From the IMG/VR virus record IMGVR_UViG_3300025168_000468, positions 1 to 28,730 of that record: 28,730 nt of DNA; one strand, written 5' to 3'. The position numbers and the translations under genes were made by a program. Of the stretch, positions 14,021-25,847 are shown one piece after another. The DNA is from a virus. Position 1 is the first letter of the stretch. Each line of letters starts with the position of its first letter. Under the pieces are notes generated by a model. That model saw only the letters and a program-made list of their open reading frames with translations. It was not told the DNA's origin and did no database searches.

Positions 14021-14701
14021 CTACCATGGCGCAGTCAGTGCCATCCAACATTCAGGGAAGAGAGGTATCATTATAATATCCCACTGCTTCGCCAACTCTC
14101 TCACCTCTTGCTGCGCGTCAGGCTGGGACCGTAGATTGTACGCTCTAGCCCATGCGTATAGAGATCCAGTAACGTAGTACTCTGTGTACATGGACTGGGG
14201 CAGTACCATCCTAGCTTGCTCTGGACATACGCCCTTTCGTAGCATCTGTTTGTACACCCACATACATCTGTTAATAGCGTGATCATAGTCATCTACCATG
14301 GCCTCGTTTCCGCTGGCAGTAGCAGGATTGATATCTATAACTACATCAGATGACCCCTGCTTCTTATCCTCTGCTTTGCCGCGCCACTCGTCCGGCTTGT
14401 AGAACTCTGGATCTTCATCCACATACCTACGGCTTACTTCGTTGTACGAGAAACCAATAGTATGCTTGAACCGCTGCCTAGCCACGAACAATGGAACCTT
14501 CTCACGCATCGTAACAGTGGCATGAGTAAAGGGTGTGAAGTGATCGTGGTCAGCTAAGTATTTAAGTAGCTTTATATCCTTCTCTTCTACGTGTGCCCCC
14601 ATCTCCGTCAGTTTATATGAGGACTCTTTGTTGAAGCTGACCCTGGCCGCGTTCACTACGGAGAGGTCCGTCCCCATCGAGTCTATCAGTTCTACTTTCA
14701 T
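14021..14701 (-). CDS. thyX: Flavin-dependent thymidylate synthase ThyX
   Basis: The 226-residue product makes dTMP from dUMP using FAD, NADPH and methylene-tetrahydrofolate. The ThyX core is clear: FTPFTHATVTMREKVPLFVA, then RQRFKHTIGFSYNEVSRRY, and EQARMVLPQSMYTEYYVTGS followed by YAWARAYNLR. The canonical RHRx7S signature is changed to KHT (residues 79-81) with one extra residue before the NEVS segment, a variant I believe occurs in phage ThyX proteins; the SxNExSxRY part is intact. The start overlaps the endonuclease stop (ATGA). With nrdJ and the MazG-like gene it forms the nucleotide-pool set. Confidence 0.93.
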   Translation of the reverse strand: MKVELIDSMGTDLSVVNAARVSFNKESSYKLTEMGAHVEEKDIKLLKYLADHDHFTPFTHATVTMREKVPLFVARQRFKHTIGFSYNEVSRRYVDEDPEFYKPDEWRGKAEDKKQGSSDVVIDINPATASGNEAMVDDYDHAINRCMWVYKQMLRKGVCPEQARMVLPQSMYTEYYVTGSLYAWARAYNLRSQPDAQQEVRELAKQWDIIMIPLFPECWMALTAPW

Positions 14702-15123
14702 TTGCCCACCTCAAGATATGCTATTGCACGATTTAAAATCTCAACACAATCATCGAAGCCGCCCAATGCCCTGTTGCATTTGTGGCAGAGCCAGCCTCTA
14801 AAAGTCTCTGTTTCGTGGCAGTGATCTAATACCCATGACCCATTCTTGGTATTCCCTTTGCCCTTAACTTGATCCTCATCCTGATTACATATAGGGCAGA
14901 TGTAGCCCACAGTGGGCATACCATGCTCTTTACGTAACACCTGTCTTACATTGTGCAAGTATCTGTTGCACTTCTTACACTCAGGCCGAAGGTAGTTACC
15001 CCCTGATGTCATAGAGAATGAGGACAGGGGGAGGTACTCTTCACATTTACTACATACCTTACCTTCCCCTGCCCCTAGGTCCCCATGCTCCTCAAACATG
15101 TCTAGCTGTGCTGAATGCGTCAC
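14698..15123 (-). CDS. Endonuclease VII-like HNH nuclease (141 aa)
   Basis: The C-terminal half has the recombination endonuclease VII signature: CPIC (76-79), then WVLDHCHETETFRGWLC with the DH-H active-site block (D100, H101, H103), CHKC (113-116) and N117 followed by RALGGFDD. The N-terminal third carries a separate Cys cluster (C24, C27, C49, C52) that looks like a second zinc finger. Endonuclease VII cleaves Holliday junctions and branched DNA. I take the GTG at 15123, with AGAGG upstream and a GTGA overlap with the preceding gene; an ATG at 15099 has no ribosome site. Homing HNH nucleases share this fold, so a homing role is an alternative. Confidence 0.85.
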   Translation of the reverse strand: MTHSAQLDMFEEHGDLGAGEGKVCSKCEEYLPLSSFSMTSGGNYLRPECKKCNRYLHNVRQVLRKEHGMPTVGYICPICNQDEDQVKGKGNTKNGSWVLDHCHETETFRGWLCHKCNRALGGFDDCVEILNRAIAYLEVGK

Positions 15124-16198: not shown

Positions 16199-17905
16199 TT
16201 ATACTCCACAAACGCCGCCGGTGTTACTTATCTCACATATATCATGTGTCTCTACGTGTTCCTCAAACTCTTCCCCTAGCTTATCGACAGCTTCCTCGTA
16301 AGGCACAGGAGTAAGGGGCTGTCCTCCTCGCGAGCCATCAGGGTAGCACGTAAACCCGCGAAGCCTGTGGGCGTAGTCAGCTAGCGTGTGGGCAAATCCT
16401 GCGACCGTATCAGGGTTGTTGTGCTTACTGCCCCACTCTGGCAGGTTGATCGTAGAACTAATAGACATATCAACGTAGTCTTGAACGTCTGCTTGAAAAG
16501 CAATGCGCCTTTCATACTCAGAGGCTAGGTCTAGGGCGCTCTCTATATTGTCTGGATCTATGCCGTAGACATCAATCATCTCCTTGGCTGCACTGTCTAC
16601 AACGTACTGATATTTCCAGCGAGTACCGTTCGTCAGATACCTTCTCTTATAGGCTATGGCAAACAAGGGCTCTATCCCCGTAGTAGTACCTGCCAAGATC
16701 CCAATGCTGCCAGTAGGAGCAATGGCGCGTACCGCAACGGGGCGTGATACAGACAACTCATCCGCAAAGGATGAAGCCGTCTTATCAGACCATCTCTTAT
16801 ACACATGAAGCCATCTATGCAGTTCGTCAGTAACTTCATACTTATGCCCCCTTTTAATCAGCCACTCATGTATTCCCATCAAGCCTAGGCCTAGCCGCCT
16901 GTTCTTATTCCTAACCTCGTACACCTTGGCGTAAGGAAGCTGCGCCCTAAGTGTACCACACAGAAGGAATTTAGTGCCTAGTTCTACGACATCTGCAAGC
17001 TCCCTGAGCGACTCAATACGGCCAAGGTTGACGCTGCCCAAATTGCAGACATCAGAGTCATCAGCAGAGCAAACTTCAGTACAGGCGTTGCGTAAAGTTT
17101 CATTTTCATTCTCCATAAAGTTAAAGCTAAATCCAGGTTCCGCCGACATTAGAGCCTGTCGTACATTTTGCATGTACACCTCTCCTAACTCACCAGTGGT
17201 CCAGTATCTATACAGCCACTCGTTATCGTAGTTCACACTGATGTTTGTCATATCCAGTGGTGCCGGAAAGTTAAAGTCTGATTCTTTAATCTGTTTTAAA
17301 GTTTGGCCCGTGTTACCTACAGGCATTGATCCCCAGTCTTTTGCTTTAAGAAATTTATCTATGTCCCCGTGCTTCCAATTCAAGGAAGCGTAAATAGCGG
17401 ATCTGCGCGAGCCGCCCTGCATCACGCGCCTTCCTATCTCATTTATCATAGACATCTTAGGAATAGGCCCGCTGGCTGTACCTCCCGTGCCCACTAGCGC
17501 ACGTCCCGAAGGGCGGTACACAGAGTAGTCTACCCCTATACCTCCCCCCGTCATGAGGCAGGACTCTGACTTCCAACTTAGGTTTGCCCAGTCCTCTCGC
17601 GTATCTTCTTCTGCTGCCAACAGGAAGCAGTTATTGTAGAACCTGTTCTTACGCCCCGCGTAGTAGAGATACCGTCCCCCAGGCACGAACTTCAGATCTA
17701 TAATGTACTGAGTAAGCTGGGCTATCTCAGTGGCCGACATCAAGTTCTGTTCCCCGTCGCGCAAGTCCCCGCACACATCCTTAACCAACACGGTGGAAAG
17801 ATCCTGCCATGTGGTGCATCCAGGATGCGCGTACTTCAGGTTAAATATATCCTCAGAGAACTTAGATCTAAACATAGGATTTTCATTTGATTTATATGAA
17901 AGCAT
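16199..17905 (-). CDS. nrdJ: Class II (B12-dependent) ribonucleotide reductase NrdJ
   Basis: The 568 residues form a compact reductase. Visible sites are C93 (YNNCFLL, first redox Cys), N273-x-C275-x-E277 (catalytic radical Cys and Glu), C287 (DVCNLGSVNL, second redox Cys), the PTGSIGILAGTTTGIEP loop at about 397-413 and a C-terminal Cys pair (C557, C566) for re-reduction. No small radical subunit (nrdB) and no class III activase is encoded nearby, which fits the adenosylcobalamin-dependent class. It reduces ribonucleotides to deoxyribonucleotides, so the phage depends on host cobalamin. There is no N-terminal ATP-cone. The 62 aa gene's stop lies just before the start, with AGGAAAC as ribosome site. 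Confidence 0.93.
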   Translation of the reverse strand: MLSYKSNENPMFRSKFSEDIFNLKYAHPGCTTWQDLSTVLVKDVCGDLRDGEQNLMSATEIAQLTQYIIDLKFVPGGRYLYYAGRKNRFYNNCFLLAAEEDTREDWANLSWKSESCLMTGGGIGVDYSVYRPSGRALVGTGGTASGPIPKMSMINEIGRRVMQGGSRRSAIYASLNWKHGDIDKFLKAKDWGSMPVGNTGQTLKQIKESDFNFPAPLDMTNISVNYDNEWLYRYWTTGELGEVYMQNVRQALMSAEPGFSFNFMENENETLRNACTEVCSADDSDVCNLGSVNLGRIESLRELADVVELGTKFLLCGTLRAQLPYAKVYEVRNKNRRLGLGLMGIHEWLIKRGHKYEVTDELHRWLHVYKRWSDKTASSFADELSVSRPVAVRAIAPTGSIGILAGTTTGIEPLFAIAYKRRYLTNGTRWKYQYVVDSAAKEMIDVYGIDPDNIESALDLASEYERRIAFQADVQDYVDMSISSTINLPEWGSKHNNPDTVAGFAHTLADYAHRLRGFTCYPDGSRGGQPLTPVPYEEAVDKLGEEFEEHVETHDICEISNTGGVCGV

Positions 17906-20125: not shown

Positions 20126-20995
20126 CTATGAATCCAGTGTCACAAAAGAACTATCAGCATCAATAGATTTATCAGTAGAAACAGGGGATAAAGCTCCATG
20201 ATGTTTCTCCAAGATCCATTTATTAATCTGTGCAATGTGAGTACCAAACTTACCGTGCATATCTACGGCGCGTTCGTCCATCGTGTGAGATGGATCTCCA
20301 TGCATAGACGCTTCAATATCGTAGTACGTAACGCCTCCTGTAATCTTCTTAGACTTCAGGGTAACATCACAGAAGTTAGGGTAGATGCCAAGACGCACGG
20401 CAATGTCATGATAGAACGAAGCCAGGGTCTTGCCGGAAGTTTTGCCAGACAACTCCATCTCTACAGGAACAGTAACGTCTACCTTCTCACTATCCTTATT
20501 GACGCCTACTACATGCGCCTCGCCAAAGAAGATAGTCATGATGCGGCAGGACCGAATGAACTCTTGCCTATCCTTAGACAAGCTATTCCAATCCTTGATG
20601 TACTCCAGAGGGCGACCGCACTGGAAGCTGCCATCCTCAGAGGGGGCCTCATCCCGCTGCCCCTGCACAAGAACGGAGTGTACGTAGCTGCCTCGTGAGG
20701 TTGACCCGTCGCGGTTCTTACGTTCTGCATCGGCATCGTACCGCTTATGACGATAGCGATGATCGTAGTAGCGGAAGTCTACGGTCTTAGCGTATACCGT
20801 CTCGCCATTGTAACTAACAGCAAAGTGACCGGCGGGGCACAGGATGTCCCCGTCGCTATCCTCTACGTTGTCCCGTAGAATACGGACGCGGCCCAGGGCA
20901 TTTGAATTAGACGACTCCTCGACATCACTGAAGCGTGACGTGAAAGCCGCAAGCAGCGTAGCCTTATCCATCGTTGCAATTTCTGTCATACTCAT
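20126..20995 (-). CDS. Unknown replication-module protein (289 aa)
   Basis: AGGAGG stands 9 bases before the ATG at 20995, and a consensus promoter lies just upstream. The gene is first in its transcript, ahead of the nuclease and resolvase genes. The sequence has an N-terminal helix, a probable beta-rich middle (GETVYAKTVDFRYYDHRYRH; VDVTVPVEMELSG) and a Ser/Asp-rich, slightly acidic C-terminal tail (SIDADSSFVTLDS). A beta-rich core with an acidic tail, beside an exonuclease, would fit a single-strand DNA binding or annealing protein. But I see no OB-fold, RecT or Erf signature, so this is position-based only. Confidence 0.65.
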   Translation of the reverse strand: MSMTEIATMDKATLLAAFTSRFSDVEESSNSNALGRVRILRDNVEDSDGDILCPAGHFAVSYNGETVYAKTVDFRYYDHRYRHKRYDADAERKNRDGSTSRGSYVHSVLVQGQRDEAPSEDGSFQCGRPLEYIKDWNSLSKDRQEFIRSCRIMTIFFGEAHVVGVNKDSEKVDVTVPVEMELSGKTSGKTLASFYHDIAVRLGIYPNFCDVTLKSKKITGGVTYYDIEASMHGDPSHTMDERAVDMHGKFGTHIAQINKWILEKHHGALSPVSTDKSIDADSSFVTLDS

Positions 20996-21054: not shown

Positions 21055-23165
21055 GCCATATCTAGCCAGTTCTCTCCTTTTTTAGTGTCGATAGACAGAG
21101 GTACATTCATATCAAATCCGTAGAAGTCCTCGATCATTTGCCGTATGCTATCAGTAGAAAACTCCACCTCTAGTATGCGTTTGATAACAGGCACTTCATC
21201 CTCCATGCAATCCAGCAACACGCTGTCATGTACTGTGTTCACGATGCTAGAGTTGAGCCCTCTCCATCGCAGAGCTTCCCTCAAGTTGACTAGGCACAGA
21301 GGGACGATGTCAGCAGTGGCAAAGCTCTGCACCGGATAGTTCTTAATCTTAGTAGCCCCCGTCGCCCCTCCATTCCTATTCCTCTTGGCATCAGGGAAAG
21401 AGAACACCCTTCCAGTAGGGAGTACGATACTCTTATTACGAATAGCGTCGTCCTGTAGTCTCCTATGCCAGTCCTTTATGCCGTTGTACTTATCGATGAA
21501 GTGTACATTGTAAGCCTTCTCAGCGGGAGATCCATTCATAGCACCATATAGTGGGGCGAACGTCCGGCTCTTAGCCTCCTGCCTAGAAGTAGACTGCCCC
21601 ATCTTAGTGAGGAAGTCCGCTGTGTACGTATGCACATCGAAGCCTGTGTCTATTTCTTCTTTGGCCACGGCATCATCGGACAGATACGCCGCTGCCCTAA
21701 ACTCTAGCTGGGCGAAGTCAAACTCCATCAACATCCCATGGTCCCCAAACCTAGAGACAAAGGCCTTCTTGACAGGGAACGTCCCTCCCCGTGGCATGTT
21801 CTGCATGTTGGGCCGACTGGATGACAACCTGCCCGTTGCAGTACGGCACTGATTAAACTCTGCGTACAAGGTGTACATACGATTTACGGAAGTGGACCCA
21901 CCAATCACTGTGCTTCTGGAAGGTATGGCCCGCTTACGTATGCCCTCTACAAAGGAGGACAGGTACGTTTCTATTGCACCCAGGCGCTCAACCTTCTCTA
22001 AGAACTCTATCGCATCGGAGTACGTGTCGGGGGACTTGGCCCTCAATTGACTAGCCAGTATCCGCAACCTCTGCTTATCCGTAGAGAACCCATTCATGGT
22101 CGCCCACTGAGAGTCAGGAGGATTAATCTTGAAGCCCCCTATCTGCCCAGTAGATCTGTATACGACGCCATCTCCCCCGCATCCACCGCATATGTTAGCA
22201 GACTTATAGGGGTTACCATCCTTCTTTACGCGCAGCACTTTACCATTTCCCCGGCAGTCGCTGCATACATTAGACTCAGTACGAGTAACTATGGTGCATC
22301 CGCTGCTTAGATAGGCCTTGAACTTAGAGGCTGACACAGAGGGCCGGAAGCTGCGCTCCAACTGAAAGAACTCCTTGTGCCTCTTCTTATCCTTTGGTGA
22401 TCGTGAGAATATCATAGAGGACAATTGCTCCGGGCTGCTTAGATTAACCGGAGTATCCCCCATGTAAGTATTGACCAGGAATTTAAGCCTACGTTCCAGG
22501 GCCTTCTTCTCTACGCGATAGTCGAACTCCACCTTATCCAATACATCCATGTCAATATACATGCCGCTCTTCTCTATTTCAGATAGGCACATACACATCT
22601 CATTTGTAAGATCCACAGTCTTCTGAAGGGAGGTGCCCTCCAAGTCTTCTACCTGCTTAAGATAAAGCTCACGGGTAGACAGGATATCCGCCGTGCCATA
22701 TTCCTTTACAACACTCCAAGGCATGGCCTCGTACCCTATCCCCCGGTCCCAGTACTCCTTAGTTATATCAGACTTCTTAATGTCCAAGTCCCGGTACTCA
22801 CAGATAGCGCCAAGCGACAGCCCTTTACGGATACCTCTGTGCAGGATGTACTCTGTTGCCATGGTATCATGTATCTTCCCAGAGTACCGGATGCCCACTG
22901 CCCACAACCATTGAAGATCATACTTAATGTTGTGACCAACGATCAGATCCGCCCCTTCGATAAGCTCCTTAACCATCTTAAGACCTGCTAGATCTGGGTC
23001 TTTCTCTTCGTGATACACGCACACATAGCTTACTGCGCCGGTATCTATGTCAACCACTCCTATGCTAACTAATTCGTTGTTACTATTGTAGGGGCGATTG
23101 TCTACTCCCCCACTTGAAGGCTTAGTAACACTGTTCTCTACATCCACTACAAGTCTTCTAGTCAT
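21051..23165 (-). CDS. polA: Family A DNA polymerase with DnaJ-type zinc insertion
   Basis: The 704-residue enzyme has a 3'-5' proofreading domain (D8/E10 in VVDVEN; GHNIKYD at 77-83; YGTAD at 156-160) and a polymerase domain: motif A MEFDFAQLEFR (D483), motif B RQEAKSRTFAPLYG (R528, K532, F536, Y540) and motif C VHDS (H646, D647). Motif C has Ser where HDE is usual. F536 aligns with E. coli F762. Between the domains, CSDCRGNG (301-308) and CGGCGGDG (326-333) form a DnaJ-like zinc pair with an 18-residue loop. This unusual insertion was reported for marine phage HMO-2011. The ATG at 23165 overlaps the helicase stop. Confidence 0.96.
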   Translation of the reverse strand: MTRRLVVDVENSVTKPSSGGVDNRPYNSNNELVSIGVVDIDTGAVSYVCVYHEEKDPDLAGLKMVKELIEGADLIVGHNIKYDLQWLWAVGIRYSGKIHDTMATEYILHRGIRKGLSLGAICEYRDLDIKKSDITKEYWDRGIGYEAMPWSVVKEYGTADILSTRELYLKQVEDLEGTSLQKTVDLTNEMCMCLSEIEKSGMYIDMDVLDKVEFDYRVEKKALERRLKFLVNTYMGDTPVNLSSPEQLSSMIFSRSPKDKKRHKEFFQLERSFRPSVSASKFKAYLSSGCTIVTRTESNVCSDCRGNGKVLRVKKDGNPYKSANICGGCGGDGVVYRSTGQIGGFKINPPDSQWATMNGFSTDKQRLRILASQLRAKSPDTYSDAIEFLEKVERLGAIETYLSSFVEGIRKRAIPSRSTVIGGSTSVNRMYTLYAEFNQCRTATGRLSSSRPNMQNMPRGGTFPVKKAFVSRFGDHGMLMEFDFAQLEFRAAAYLSDDAVAKEEIDTGFDVHTYTADFLTKMGQSTSRQEAKSRTFAPLYGAMNGSPAEKAYNVHFIDKYNGIKDWHRRLQDDAIRNKSIVLPTGRVFSFPDAKRNRNGGATGATKIKNYPVQSFATADIVPLCLVNLREALRWRGLNSSIVNTVHDSVLLDCMEDEVPVIKRILEVEFSTDSIRQMIEDFYGFDMNVPLSIDTKKGENWLDMA

Positions 23166-24375
23166 CGTACTTAGCCTTTCTCCCGTCTAGCATGACATGT
23201 ATTTGCCCGTGCCATCCACTGATTTTATTCTTAGCTATGTTGAATACACGCCTAGGATCGTTCTCTTGGGCCCCTTCTACCTGGGAATACTTACCAATAA
23301 GAAGCATAAGATCAGCTTCTGCTGCCTTACCTGTGCGGGAGTTCTCCATCATAGACAAGTTTAGATTAACCCTGCCCTCTGCTTCTGCACTTAGCTGAGA
23401 GTATCCGAAGATAACGCAGCCATACTTAGTAGCTAGATCCCTGGTCCTACGGTACAGTTCACGAAGCCTTTCATGCTGCGCTAGGTCAGATGATCCCTCA
23501 ATTGTCACCTTATCCAACATGTCAATTACCAGGATGTCAGGGCCATGCGTGTTGAGATGAGACTCTACGCCGTCAATCCCGTGCGTGTCATCTATCCTAT
23601 CTATAAGAAGGTTGCCCCTCTTGAACTCGCCATTGATCTGCCCTTTACTAGCTAACAATTCTGGCTCTGTCTTATTAGTGGAAGCAGACATGTACCGTAA
23701 GGCTACGCGCTCTGCTGGTTCTTCGTTGCATAGCACATGCACGACGGCACCCTGATCTATCCATCCCCCTGCTGACATAGCAAAGGAGGCATGGCTACTA
23801 GTCTTGCCCGTCTCCGGCCTAGACCCTACCACCACGAAGTGCCCTGGACTTACGCCGGGTACTCTCTCGGCTAAGGCAGATAGGTTAAAGGCCCACTTAG
23901 ATTGTGTCTCAAGAGAGTCGAGTAGACTATCAGGACTGAGGTCAATGCCGTGGAAGGGAGATCCCGTAGATACGAAGCCCTCCGAAGTATCTTCTATCAG
24001 TTTCTTTATCTTGTTTAAGTTAGTGTCTACGCCTTCCATCAACTCAAAGCCAAGCTCAGAGATACGACGCCCTGTCTCTACGCGCCACAGAGATTGCATA
24101 ACATCGGTCACGACATCAGCCCCTATGGTATCCGCGTGATCTATCTTAGCGAACAGTACCTTGTACGTATCCTTCTGTGCCTCAGTAAGGGTAGTGTTGT
24201 GGGCAAAGAATACGTGCCTCAGTTCGCCCACAGTTATGTCGCGATCAAACTTATCGTGTACCTCTACTAGTGTCTGTACTACGCGCTTAGGCTCCCTATC
24301 GAATGCGCTTACTGGGATAGGCCCCGCCGAATGGAAGGCATCCTTACTGCATAGAGACTTGATCAAGTCCAGCAT
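23158..24375 (-). CDS. Replicative DNA helicase, DnaB/gp4 type (405 aa)
   Basis: RecA-fold helicase motifs are clear: Walker A GSRPETGKTS (184-193), the catalytic Glu after strand 2 (CNEEP, 217-220), Walker B ILVID (281-285) and the sensor Gln in FGYSQLS (Q327). An N-terminal 130-residue helical domain, without zinc finger or TOPRIM, fits a stand-alone helicase that works with the separate primase. In phage T7 both activities sit in one protein. The start (24375) overlaps the primase stop and the end overlaps the polymerase start, so primase, helicase and polymerase form one translationally linked set. It should unwind DNA in the 5'-3' direction at the fork. Confidence 0.93.
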   Translation of the reverse strand: MLDLIKSLCSKDAFHSAGPIPVSAFDREPKRVVQTLVEVHDKFDRDITVGELRHVFFAHNTTLTEAQKDTYKVLFAKIDHADTIGADVVTDVMQSLWRVETGRRISELGFELMEGVDTNLNKIKKLIEDTSEGFVSTGSPFHGIDLSPDSLLDSLETQSKWAFNLSALAERVPGVSPGHFVVVGSRPETGKTSSHASFAMSAGGWIDQGAVVHVLCNEEPAERVALRYMSASTNKTEPELLASKGQINGEFKRGNLLIDRIDDTHGIDGVESHLNTHGPDILVIDMLDKVTIEGSSDLAQHERLRELYRRTRDLATKYGCVIFGYSQLSAEAEGRVNLNLSMMENSRTGKAAEADLMLLIGKYSQVEGAQENDPRRVFNIAKNKISGWHGQIHVMLDGRKAKYDD

Positions 24376-25145
24376 GTTTGTATATCCTCTACCGTCATAT
24401 CCTTAATGTCTTTATTGAGCATCGATATGCTACACGACTTCACTCCCATGGCGATACGCCTGGACATAGCAATAGACTTCCTAGTCGCATCCTGGTCTAA
24501 GCATATCACTACGTTATTGTACTTCCATGCTGCCTGTAGATGCTTATCTGATAAGCTAGTACCTAGCAGCGCCATGACGTTGCATGATGGCACATGCTTA
24601 ACCAGCTTCCATGCCGATACTATATCCTCTACTATGTATAGCTTACTTAAAGTATCTGGTACACCAAAGGGGAGTATCACCGGATCGTCTGAAGCAGAAT
24701 AGCGTTTCCATTTAGGAAACTTATACCTGTTGGTTGCTCTTCCGATGCCGTCTATGTACTCCCCCTTGATGTTCTCTATCAGAAACACCACGCGGTGTTC
24801 CTTTGCATCGTACATTACGGGGATGTCCGTATAGTATATATTGTACTTGTTCAGATAATCAGTGACAGAAGCATGGCTCCCCAGATACCTAGTATCAATA
24901 GGCCCATTCGATATCTCCTTATTACTATTAAAGTGAATAGAGGGGCGAAGCGTTGCCCTTACGTCTTCCACAGACAGGTTGTCGGGATACCTCCGGCCCC
25001 TCAAGTCACAACTGGCAGAATAACAATTCCATATAATGGCAGTGCGTAGCCTAGTGACAGTAAAGGTTCCCCGCCGCCTACATGAGGGGCACTCCCCTCT
25101 GTACGTGTCGTCAATAGATAGGTTATCTATAATGTTCTCTAGCAT
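24363..25145 (-). CDS. DNA primase, zinc finger plus TOPRIM (260 aa)
   Basis: The N-terminal zinc-binding domain has C19, C22 (CPSC), C41 and C46 (CYSASC). The TOPRIM core follows: LYIVEDIVSAWKL (E173) and VICLDQD (D217, D219), the metal-binding Glu and DxD. I choose the ATG at 25145 (MLENIIDNLS); a GTG at 25160 would add five residues. The ribosome site is weak for both. A stand-alone primase next to a stand-alone helicase is the split form of T7 gp4. The expected product is short RNA primers for lagging-strand synthesis. Confidence 0.92.
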   Translation of the reverse strand: MLENIIDNLSIDDTYRGECPSCRRRGTFTVTRLRTAIIWNCYSASCDLRGRRYPDNLSVEDVRATLRPSIHFNSNKEISNGPIDTRYLGSHASVTDYLNKYNIYYTDIPVMYDAKEHRVVFLIENIKGEYIDGIGRATNRYKFPKWKRYSASDDPVILPFGVPDTLSKLYIVEDIVSAWKLVKHVPSCNVMALLGTSLSDKHLQAAWKYNNVVICLDQDATRKSIAMSRRIAMGVKSCSISMLNKDIKDMTVEDIQTCWT

Positions 25146-25175
25146 AGCGCACCCTACCACATCTATAGTTGAATG

Positions 25176-25847
25176 TCAATCGTTGGGCATCTCCAGAAAG
25201 TTTAAGTTCACACTGAAGCTGCGACGCTCACCCTTAGTATAGAACGGATAGACACAATGGAATAGATCCGATGGGAATAGATAGAAGTCCCCTACCTCTG
25301 GCTTAATCATAAAGTTAGTGGCGCTCCAGTGGCTAGGCGTCCCGTGAACAAACTGAATATGCCCATGGCTAGGGTGATGATCCTTGTAATCCTCTTCAAA
25401 CTCTGCGTCAATTCCATCTGGCATAGACAGATACCCTACACAACTTAACTTACAACCGGTATGAATATGCAAAGGATTGTACTGACCCTCGCGTTGGCGT
25501 ACTACCCACCCCGCTACGAATTGGATACCGTATTTGTTTTTAGATGAGTCCATAGATCTGGCGCCCATGCTATTACGGATCTCCATCCAACCGGCGTACT
25601 TGCTGACCAGTTCGCGCGTCTCTTGTAGAAACATCTCTTTCATGTTGTCATCAAACAGAAGCTCTTCGTCCACCTTACCTACTAGATTGTCAGAGAAATC
25701 TGTTAGTGGAGCATCCCTTCCTGGCAATCCTTCGATGATGTCATTCATCTTATTCACATAAGTATCAGACAGCTTGAGCTTGGCCATACCTGGGCCGAAG
25801 GGTGTGAAGAACTGTTCATCCTTATCACTGGTGAAGAAGGTAGCCAT
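25176..25847 (-). CDS. Putative 2OG-Fe(II) oxygenase-like protein (223 aa)
   Basis: The C-terminal half has the double-stranded beta-helix signature of the group often seen in marine phages: NPLHIHTGCKLSCVGYLSMP (H127, H129), then GHIQFVHG, GDFYLFPSDLFHCVYPF (H197) and GERRSFSVN (R208, R209). In such enzymes two His and an acid bind Fe(II), and the Arg binds 2-oxoglutarate. Here the second ligand of the HxH/HxD pair is His. The N-terminal 100 residues are helical. Substrate is unknown; peptidyl-proline, nucleobase or virion protein hydroxylation are options. The start overlaps the upstream stop by one base (TAATG). Confidence 0.8.
   Translation of the reverse strand: MATFFTSDKDEQFFTPFGPGMAKLKLSDTYVNKMNDIIEGLPGRDAPLTDFSDNLVGKVDEELLFDDNMKEMFLQETRELVSKYAGWMEIRNSMGARSMDSSKNKYGIQFVAGWVVRQREGQYNPLHIHTGCKLSCVGYLSMPDGIDAEFEEDYKDHHPSHGHIQFVHGTPSHWSATNFMIKPEVGDFYLFPSDLFHCVYPFYTKGERRSFSVNLNFLEMPND

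Follow-up and report, generated by a model that had tools for sequence, protein, structure and literature searches.

The family A DNA polymerase encoded in the window, meaning the whole stretch of 28,730 nucleotides of viral DNA analyzed here, carries a DnaJ-like finger with four cysteines inside its thumb, in the loop between helices H1 and H2, where it is predicted to stand on a beta stalk (Table 1). We give about an even chance to the reading that this finger works as a zinc-pinned basic grip on the primer-template, which would raise processivity without thioredoxin and may perhaps also serve as the docking site for the acidic tail of the product of the next gene downstream.

Table 1. Positions in the window of the polymerase, the parts of its thumb insertion and the neighboring replication genes.
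Feature	Positions	Strand	Basis
Family A DNA polymerase, 704 aa	21051..23165	(-)	ORF; Pfam; AlphaFold
Entire insertion in the thumb (residues 254-361), flanked by helices H1 (245-253) and H2 (364-377)	22083..22406	(-)	Anchor spacing, Klenow profile alignment, model
Predicted stalk strand 1, residues 294-300	22266..22286	(-)	DSSP on AlphaFold model
Four-Cys DnaJ-like finger, residues 301-333 (C301, C304, C326, C329)	22167..22265	(-)	Sequence, conservation, structure match
Basic inter-repeat loop, residues 309-325, KVLRVKKDGNPYKSANI	22191..22241	(-)	Group charge, K315/G317 conservation
Predicted stalk strand 2, residues 334-342	22140..22166	(-)	DSSP on AlphaFold model
Candidate SSB gene, conserved, directly downstream of the polymerase; 289 aa with an acidic C-terminal tail	20126..20995	(-)	Tail charge, weak SSB-like fold matches
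DnaB-type replicative helicase, overlapping the polymerase start	23158..24375	(-)	Pfam DnaB_C 2e-12
DNA primase (Toprim), N-terminal cysteine pairs of its own	24363..25160	(-)	Pfam Toprim_2 3.7e-06, PHROG 47, sequence

The polymerase is laid out as an exonuclease domain (about residues 1-175), a thumb (about 181-412) and palm and fingers (about 418-701), and Pfam recognizes both the family A domain (PF00476 DNA_pol_A, 3.7e-43) and the 3'-5' exonuclease domain (PF01612 exo1, 9.5e-07). The original prediction had named two CxxCxGxG motifs at residues 301-308 and 326-333, and they are found exactly there in the 704-residue reading frame, as CSDCRGNG and CGGCGGDG; in 200,000 shuffles of the polymerase, a single motif turned up 216 times and two motifs never did. 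The Pfam model DnaJ_CXXCXGXG (PF00684) aligns with residues 295-337 at E=0.0098, under its gathering score and over positions 12-55 of its 65, and the same model is matched by 69 of 70 group members, with a best E of 1.5e-6. Among solved structures, a profile of the finger is matched best by the Cys-rich domain of E. coli DnaJ (1exk, E=5.9e-06), at its repeats 2 and 3, followed by DnaJ homolog subfamily A member 3 and, weakly, by anti-TRAP and the phage antitermination protein Q. The phage finger shares two CxxCxGxG knuckles with the E. coli domain and differs from it in having only two of the four repeats (which in DnaJ make two zinc sites), in its longer basic spacer, in a glycine, Gly331, that is often lost in the group, and in the lack of a J-domain, none being present among the Pfam matches of the polymerase up to E=1. 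When the finger was searched against phage records with tblastn, nothing came up beyond HMO-2011-type polymerases except four records at E 2-9, which were considered as finger relatives and taken as chance.

The nearest annotated phage polymerases are gp12 of HMO-2011 (43.5% identity over 99%) and then the CRP and HTVC033P polymerases, and the order of primase, helicase and polymerase in the window is the same as in HMO-2011. In a tree of 32 polymerases, the 17 that bear the finger lie on one side of a branch (support 98/98, 98% of bootstrap trees), and therefore one gain suffices and the finger has a single origin. Judged by its sequence, the window is thus a member of the HMO-2011-type group, as had been predicted, with its polymerase and gp12 on that common branch. 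The finger as such was already known, and the window adds a further member, because the trait is common to all named HMO-2011-type phages and is treated in published work as group-defining (PMC9038755, PMC6918029, PMC8528129). The named polymerases (HMO-2011 gp12, CRP-1/2/3 and HTVC033P) have in common an exonuclease domain, a partial DnaJ Cys-rich domain and a polymerase domain (PMC9038755, PMC6918029); they are 37-44% identical to the window polymerase and, like it, have two CxxC repeats 17 aa apart and genes for primase, helicase and polymerase in this order. Unlike them, the window polymerase is on its own branch within the group, its nearest neighbors in the tree being L004 (65% identity) and L013. 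A short extension at residues 417-432 of the polymerase (the PSRSTVIGGSTSVNRM region, about 21870-21917 of the window on the minus strand, with a model pLDDT of about 53) is common only to the window polymerase and L002, the closest relative aligned, and is absent from the other aligned relatives. In addition, phage contigs of 55,371 and 62,825 bases (L274/L275 and L278/L279) were each binned in two MAGs of different labeled lineage, Flavobacteriales TMED123 and Neomarinimicrobiota MED589, and are probably mis-binned phage DNA.

In the widest scan, relatives were fetched by patterns outside the finger (near GHNxKYD and YDTMxGE), so that the sample is free of selection for the cysteines. Checked in close relatives, as the original prediction had proposed, the cysteines are kept: among 55 non-redundant relatives (<85% identity), C301, C304, C329, G306, G308, G317 and G333 are 100% conserved, C326 98% and K315 95%, the sole cysteine to be replaced being C326 in contig L055; wherever a locus lacks the motif, a contig end interrupts it. 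Only 49% of these relatives retain Gly331, the DnaJ-type glycine in repeat 2, and a strict search for two CXXCXGXG motifs passes 53 of 101 sequences, missing about half of the sample. A second set, with CRP-738 and HTVC033P as queries, has a spacer of 17 aa in 84 loci and of 29-30 aa in 69, the longer form occurring only in the CRP-738 group, whose polymerases (L114-L193) have a loop between the putative zinc knuckles that is longer by 12-13 residues, most of them basic. Over the finger, purifying selection was found in every close pair tested. The inter-repeat loop is net basic in every group member, with a mean charge of +5.4 in the group vs. -2.6 for the whole protein; the loop had been predicted to be basic and 18 residues long, and it is indeed basic, with a length of 17 residues.

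These features bear on a first alternative, namely that the finger recruits or mimics a chaperone, binding the host DnaK system or a non-native protein as host DnaJ does in lambda replication. The best solved-structure match speaks for it, being the Cys-rich domain of E. coli DnaJ, and the literature on HMO-2011-type phages itself points to the role of DnaJ in lambda replication (PMC9038755). The polymerase, however, has only part of that domain and lacks the J-domain, and the loss of Gly331 in about half of the relatives, while the basic loop is strongly conserved, suits a charge-bearing zinc knuckle better, so we judge a chaperone function of the finger unlikely and leave it only a slight chance.

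Where the finger sits was determined from anchor motifs, namely GxxxD, where thumb helix H begins, NxSS, which opens helix H1, and GFST, which precedes helix H2, with spacings taken from these motifs and MAFFT, the hhalign profile alignment of the group with T7 gp5 having drifted across the insertions. The GxxxD-NxSS and NxSS-GFST spacings are 40 and 118 in the window polymerase and 40 and 112-136 in the other finger-bearing polymerases, vs. 35 and 29 in Klenow, 104 and 29 in T7, 74 and 27 in SIO1, and 81 and 29 in Bacillus phage phi18; the Klenow profile alignment stops at NLSSPEQLSSMIFSR, profile position 255. The AlphaFold model of the polymerase (pLDDT 91, pTM 0.83), which as a whole matches the Bst, Klenow and Pol theta structures, contains H at 206-235, H1 at 245-253, small helices at 260-267 and 279-289, H2 at 364-377 and helix I at 383-412, and in it strands 294-300 and 334-342 flank the finger; the tip of the insertion is its less certain part (block pLDDT 76-90), in a model that holds neither metal nor DNA. 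Because the anchor spacing and the model put it there, the finger is placed in the thumb, within the H1-H2 loop and on a predicted beta stalk, and the original wording, which had it between the exonuclease and polymerase domains, was imprecise, since it lies after the exonuclease domain but inside the thumb. In T7, H1 spans residues 339-348, strands 6c and 6d 355-357 and 361-363, and H2 365-372, and peptides 346-355 and 360-373, which cover these elements, crosslink to the template (PMC9198812). The finger grows out of the equivalent of this DNA-contacting hairpin of T7.

T7 gp5 is also a family A polymerase with a large thumb insertion, but its insertion lies between H and H1, is without CxxC and binds host thioredoxin, whereas that of the window polymerase lies between H1 and H2 and leaves a short H-H1 loop (40 vs. 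104 in T7). The original prediction had likened the two insertions, which is right as to the thumb and wrong as to the loop (H1-H2, 118, against H-H1, 104 in T7). We considered the finger insertion as a homolog of the thioredoxin-binding loop and rejected this on position, the T7 insertion being one loop earlier, and a homologous replacement is excluded because the H-H1 loop of the window polymerase is of Klenow length. Of the proposed replacement of the T7 loop, the positional stand-in therefore falls, with only 40 residues between H and H1, and a functional, non-homologous replacement is possible. The missing thioredoxin gene, which had been taken as a hint, is uninformative in this regard, given that T7 relies on the thioredoxin of its host and that the window is a partial genome of 28.7 kb.

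The H1-H2 loop is also enlarged in polymerases without the finger. By anchor spacing, it reaches 64-69 residues in MEP402, QDWS535, ICP2 and VP41s3 and 118-134 residues in Petty, RHph_N37, Stappia SI01 and Vibrio 526E57 (L325-L328), in all cases free of cysteines, so that the same thumb loop is enlarged to 64-134 residues between anchors with no CxxC; the four-Cys unit is missing from 21 of 21 MEP402-like contigs. The polymerases of MEP402, ICP2, QDWS535 and VP41s3 (L023, L110, L112, L329) are each encoded by two reading frames, the break falling shortly behind the TGRLSS motif, and a small ORF lies between the two halves in MEP402 and VP41s3. Large insertions in both thumb loops were present in none of the polymerases examined, a small sample in which EF24C came closest (80 and 44). 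Because cysteine-free polymerases carry insertions of the same size, several lineages evidently accommodate an H1-H2 insertion, and stability could be all that the metal provides, with the finger stabilizing the long thumb hairpin and having no partner at all. We allow this purely structural role a small, though not negligible, chance, since the loop is conserved beyond the needs of a scaffold, as seen in K315 and G317, and is basic in every member of a group whose polymerase is slightly acidic on average.

The grip that we prefer would work as follows. The insertion would form a metal-pinned accessory module at the tip of the thumb of the HMO-2011-type family A polymerase, in which one zinc ion is held by cysteines 301, 304, 326 and 329, as in DnaJ, where repeats 2 and 3 together make one zinc site. 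The two resulting zinc knuckles would stand on a two-stranded stalk, itself an enlarged form of the H1-H2 hairpin, which is small in other family A polymerases, and would display a conserved basic loop (K/R-x-K-K-D-G-x-P-F/Y). In family A polymerases the tip of the thumb normally travels on the duplex, behind the active site, and because of this the finger most likely holds the primer-template by its backbone, a grip that would give higher processivity without thioredoxin; the same basic surface might also dock the acidic tail of the downstream replication protein, as a second or alternative role. This reading is supported by the conservation of the finger, the constancy of the spacer, the purifying selection, the basic loop, the H1-H2 site, the stalk strands of the model and the template crosslinks of T7. 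Against it are the facts that DnaJ fingers are known mainly for binding proteins and that the charges of the finger and of the downstream tail do not co-vary (see below).

Protein binding of this kind is what would be expected if the finger were mainly a docking module of the replisome, attaching to the tail of the candidate SSB, the helicase or the primase, and thereby coupling synthesis to unwinding or to lagging-strand priming, with little holding of DNA. The downstream protein has a tail with a net charge of about -8.2 in its last 25 residues, vs. -0.2 per 25 in its body (61 non-redundant relatives), weaker in the window (-3). A strongly acidic tail is found in most of the group, and in HMO-2011, CRP-1, CRP-3, CRP-738 and HTVC033P the gene likewise follows the polymerase. 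Its AlphaFold model (pLDDT 85) has weak fold matches, led by a phiC31 integrase-RDF fusion (E 2.5e-03), with several bacterial SSBs lower and a few viral ssDNA-binding proteins also weakly matched, and on this basis we regard it as a candidate SSB. The copy in HMO-2011 is annotated with a FliD_C Pfam match that looks spurious. In T7, the acidic C-terminal tails of the gp4 helicase bind basic patches near the thumb insertion of gp5 (PMC12593628), a precedent for docking; the window-type helicase differs from gp4 in having no acidic tail (mean tail charge of +1.7 in relatives). The protein that supplies the tails in T7 thus has none here, which counts against a docking module, and, because its own tail is acidic and the helicase has none, the downstream protein is the best candidate for tail docking; both features also support the docking part of the grip reading. 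Finger charge and downstream-tail charge, however, show no co-variation (Spearman -0.04, 156 loci), and for this reason they lend docking no support, and the site of the finger is the part of the thumb that in T7 crosslinks to the template. We therefore hold a mainly docking role to be doubtful, albeit a serious candidate. Elsewhere in the window, a 2OG-Fe(II) oxygenase gene lies just upstream of the primase (25176-25847, minus strand, Pfam 5.8e-19), and 14021-15123 and 16199-17905, also on the minus strand, contain ThyX and a gene resembling endonuclease VII, as well as a ribonucleotide reductase of 568 aa that weakly matches a class II insertion domain.

What is added here to the published finger is its exact position in the thumb, the wider class of H1-H2 insertions and a named candidate partner, together with the rejection of positional equivalence with the thioredoxin-binding loop of T7 and the separation of conserved from relaxed positions in the finger. 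We tentatively propose, as a possibility that we rate below an even chance, that phage family A polymerases acquired modules for processivity or docking in either of two thumb loops, H-H1 (T7, SIO1, SPO1-like) and H1-H2, the latter class being either cysteine-free or zinc-pinned, and that the zinc-pinned form, which arose once and is universal in the abundant HMO-2011-type marine phages, is a built-in, thioredoxin-independent grip working with the adjacent acidic-tailed SSB.

HMO-2011-type phages are considered dominant and widespread marine viruses, and the finger of their replicative polymerase is a repeated finding to which the papers cited here assign no established function. Its location in a different thumb loop from the thioredoxin-binding loop of T7 narrows its possible roles, and the exact site, the conserved core of four cysteines and the basic KKDG loop as opposed to the dispensable Gly331, and the candidate acidic partner make these roles directly testable. 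Should the finger indeed take the place of a processivity factor, it would do so as a compact, metal-dependent solution within one chain, with a possible use in making processive polymerases.
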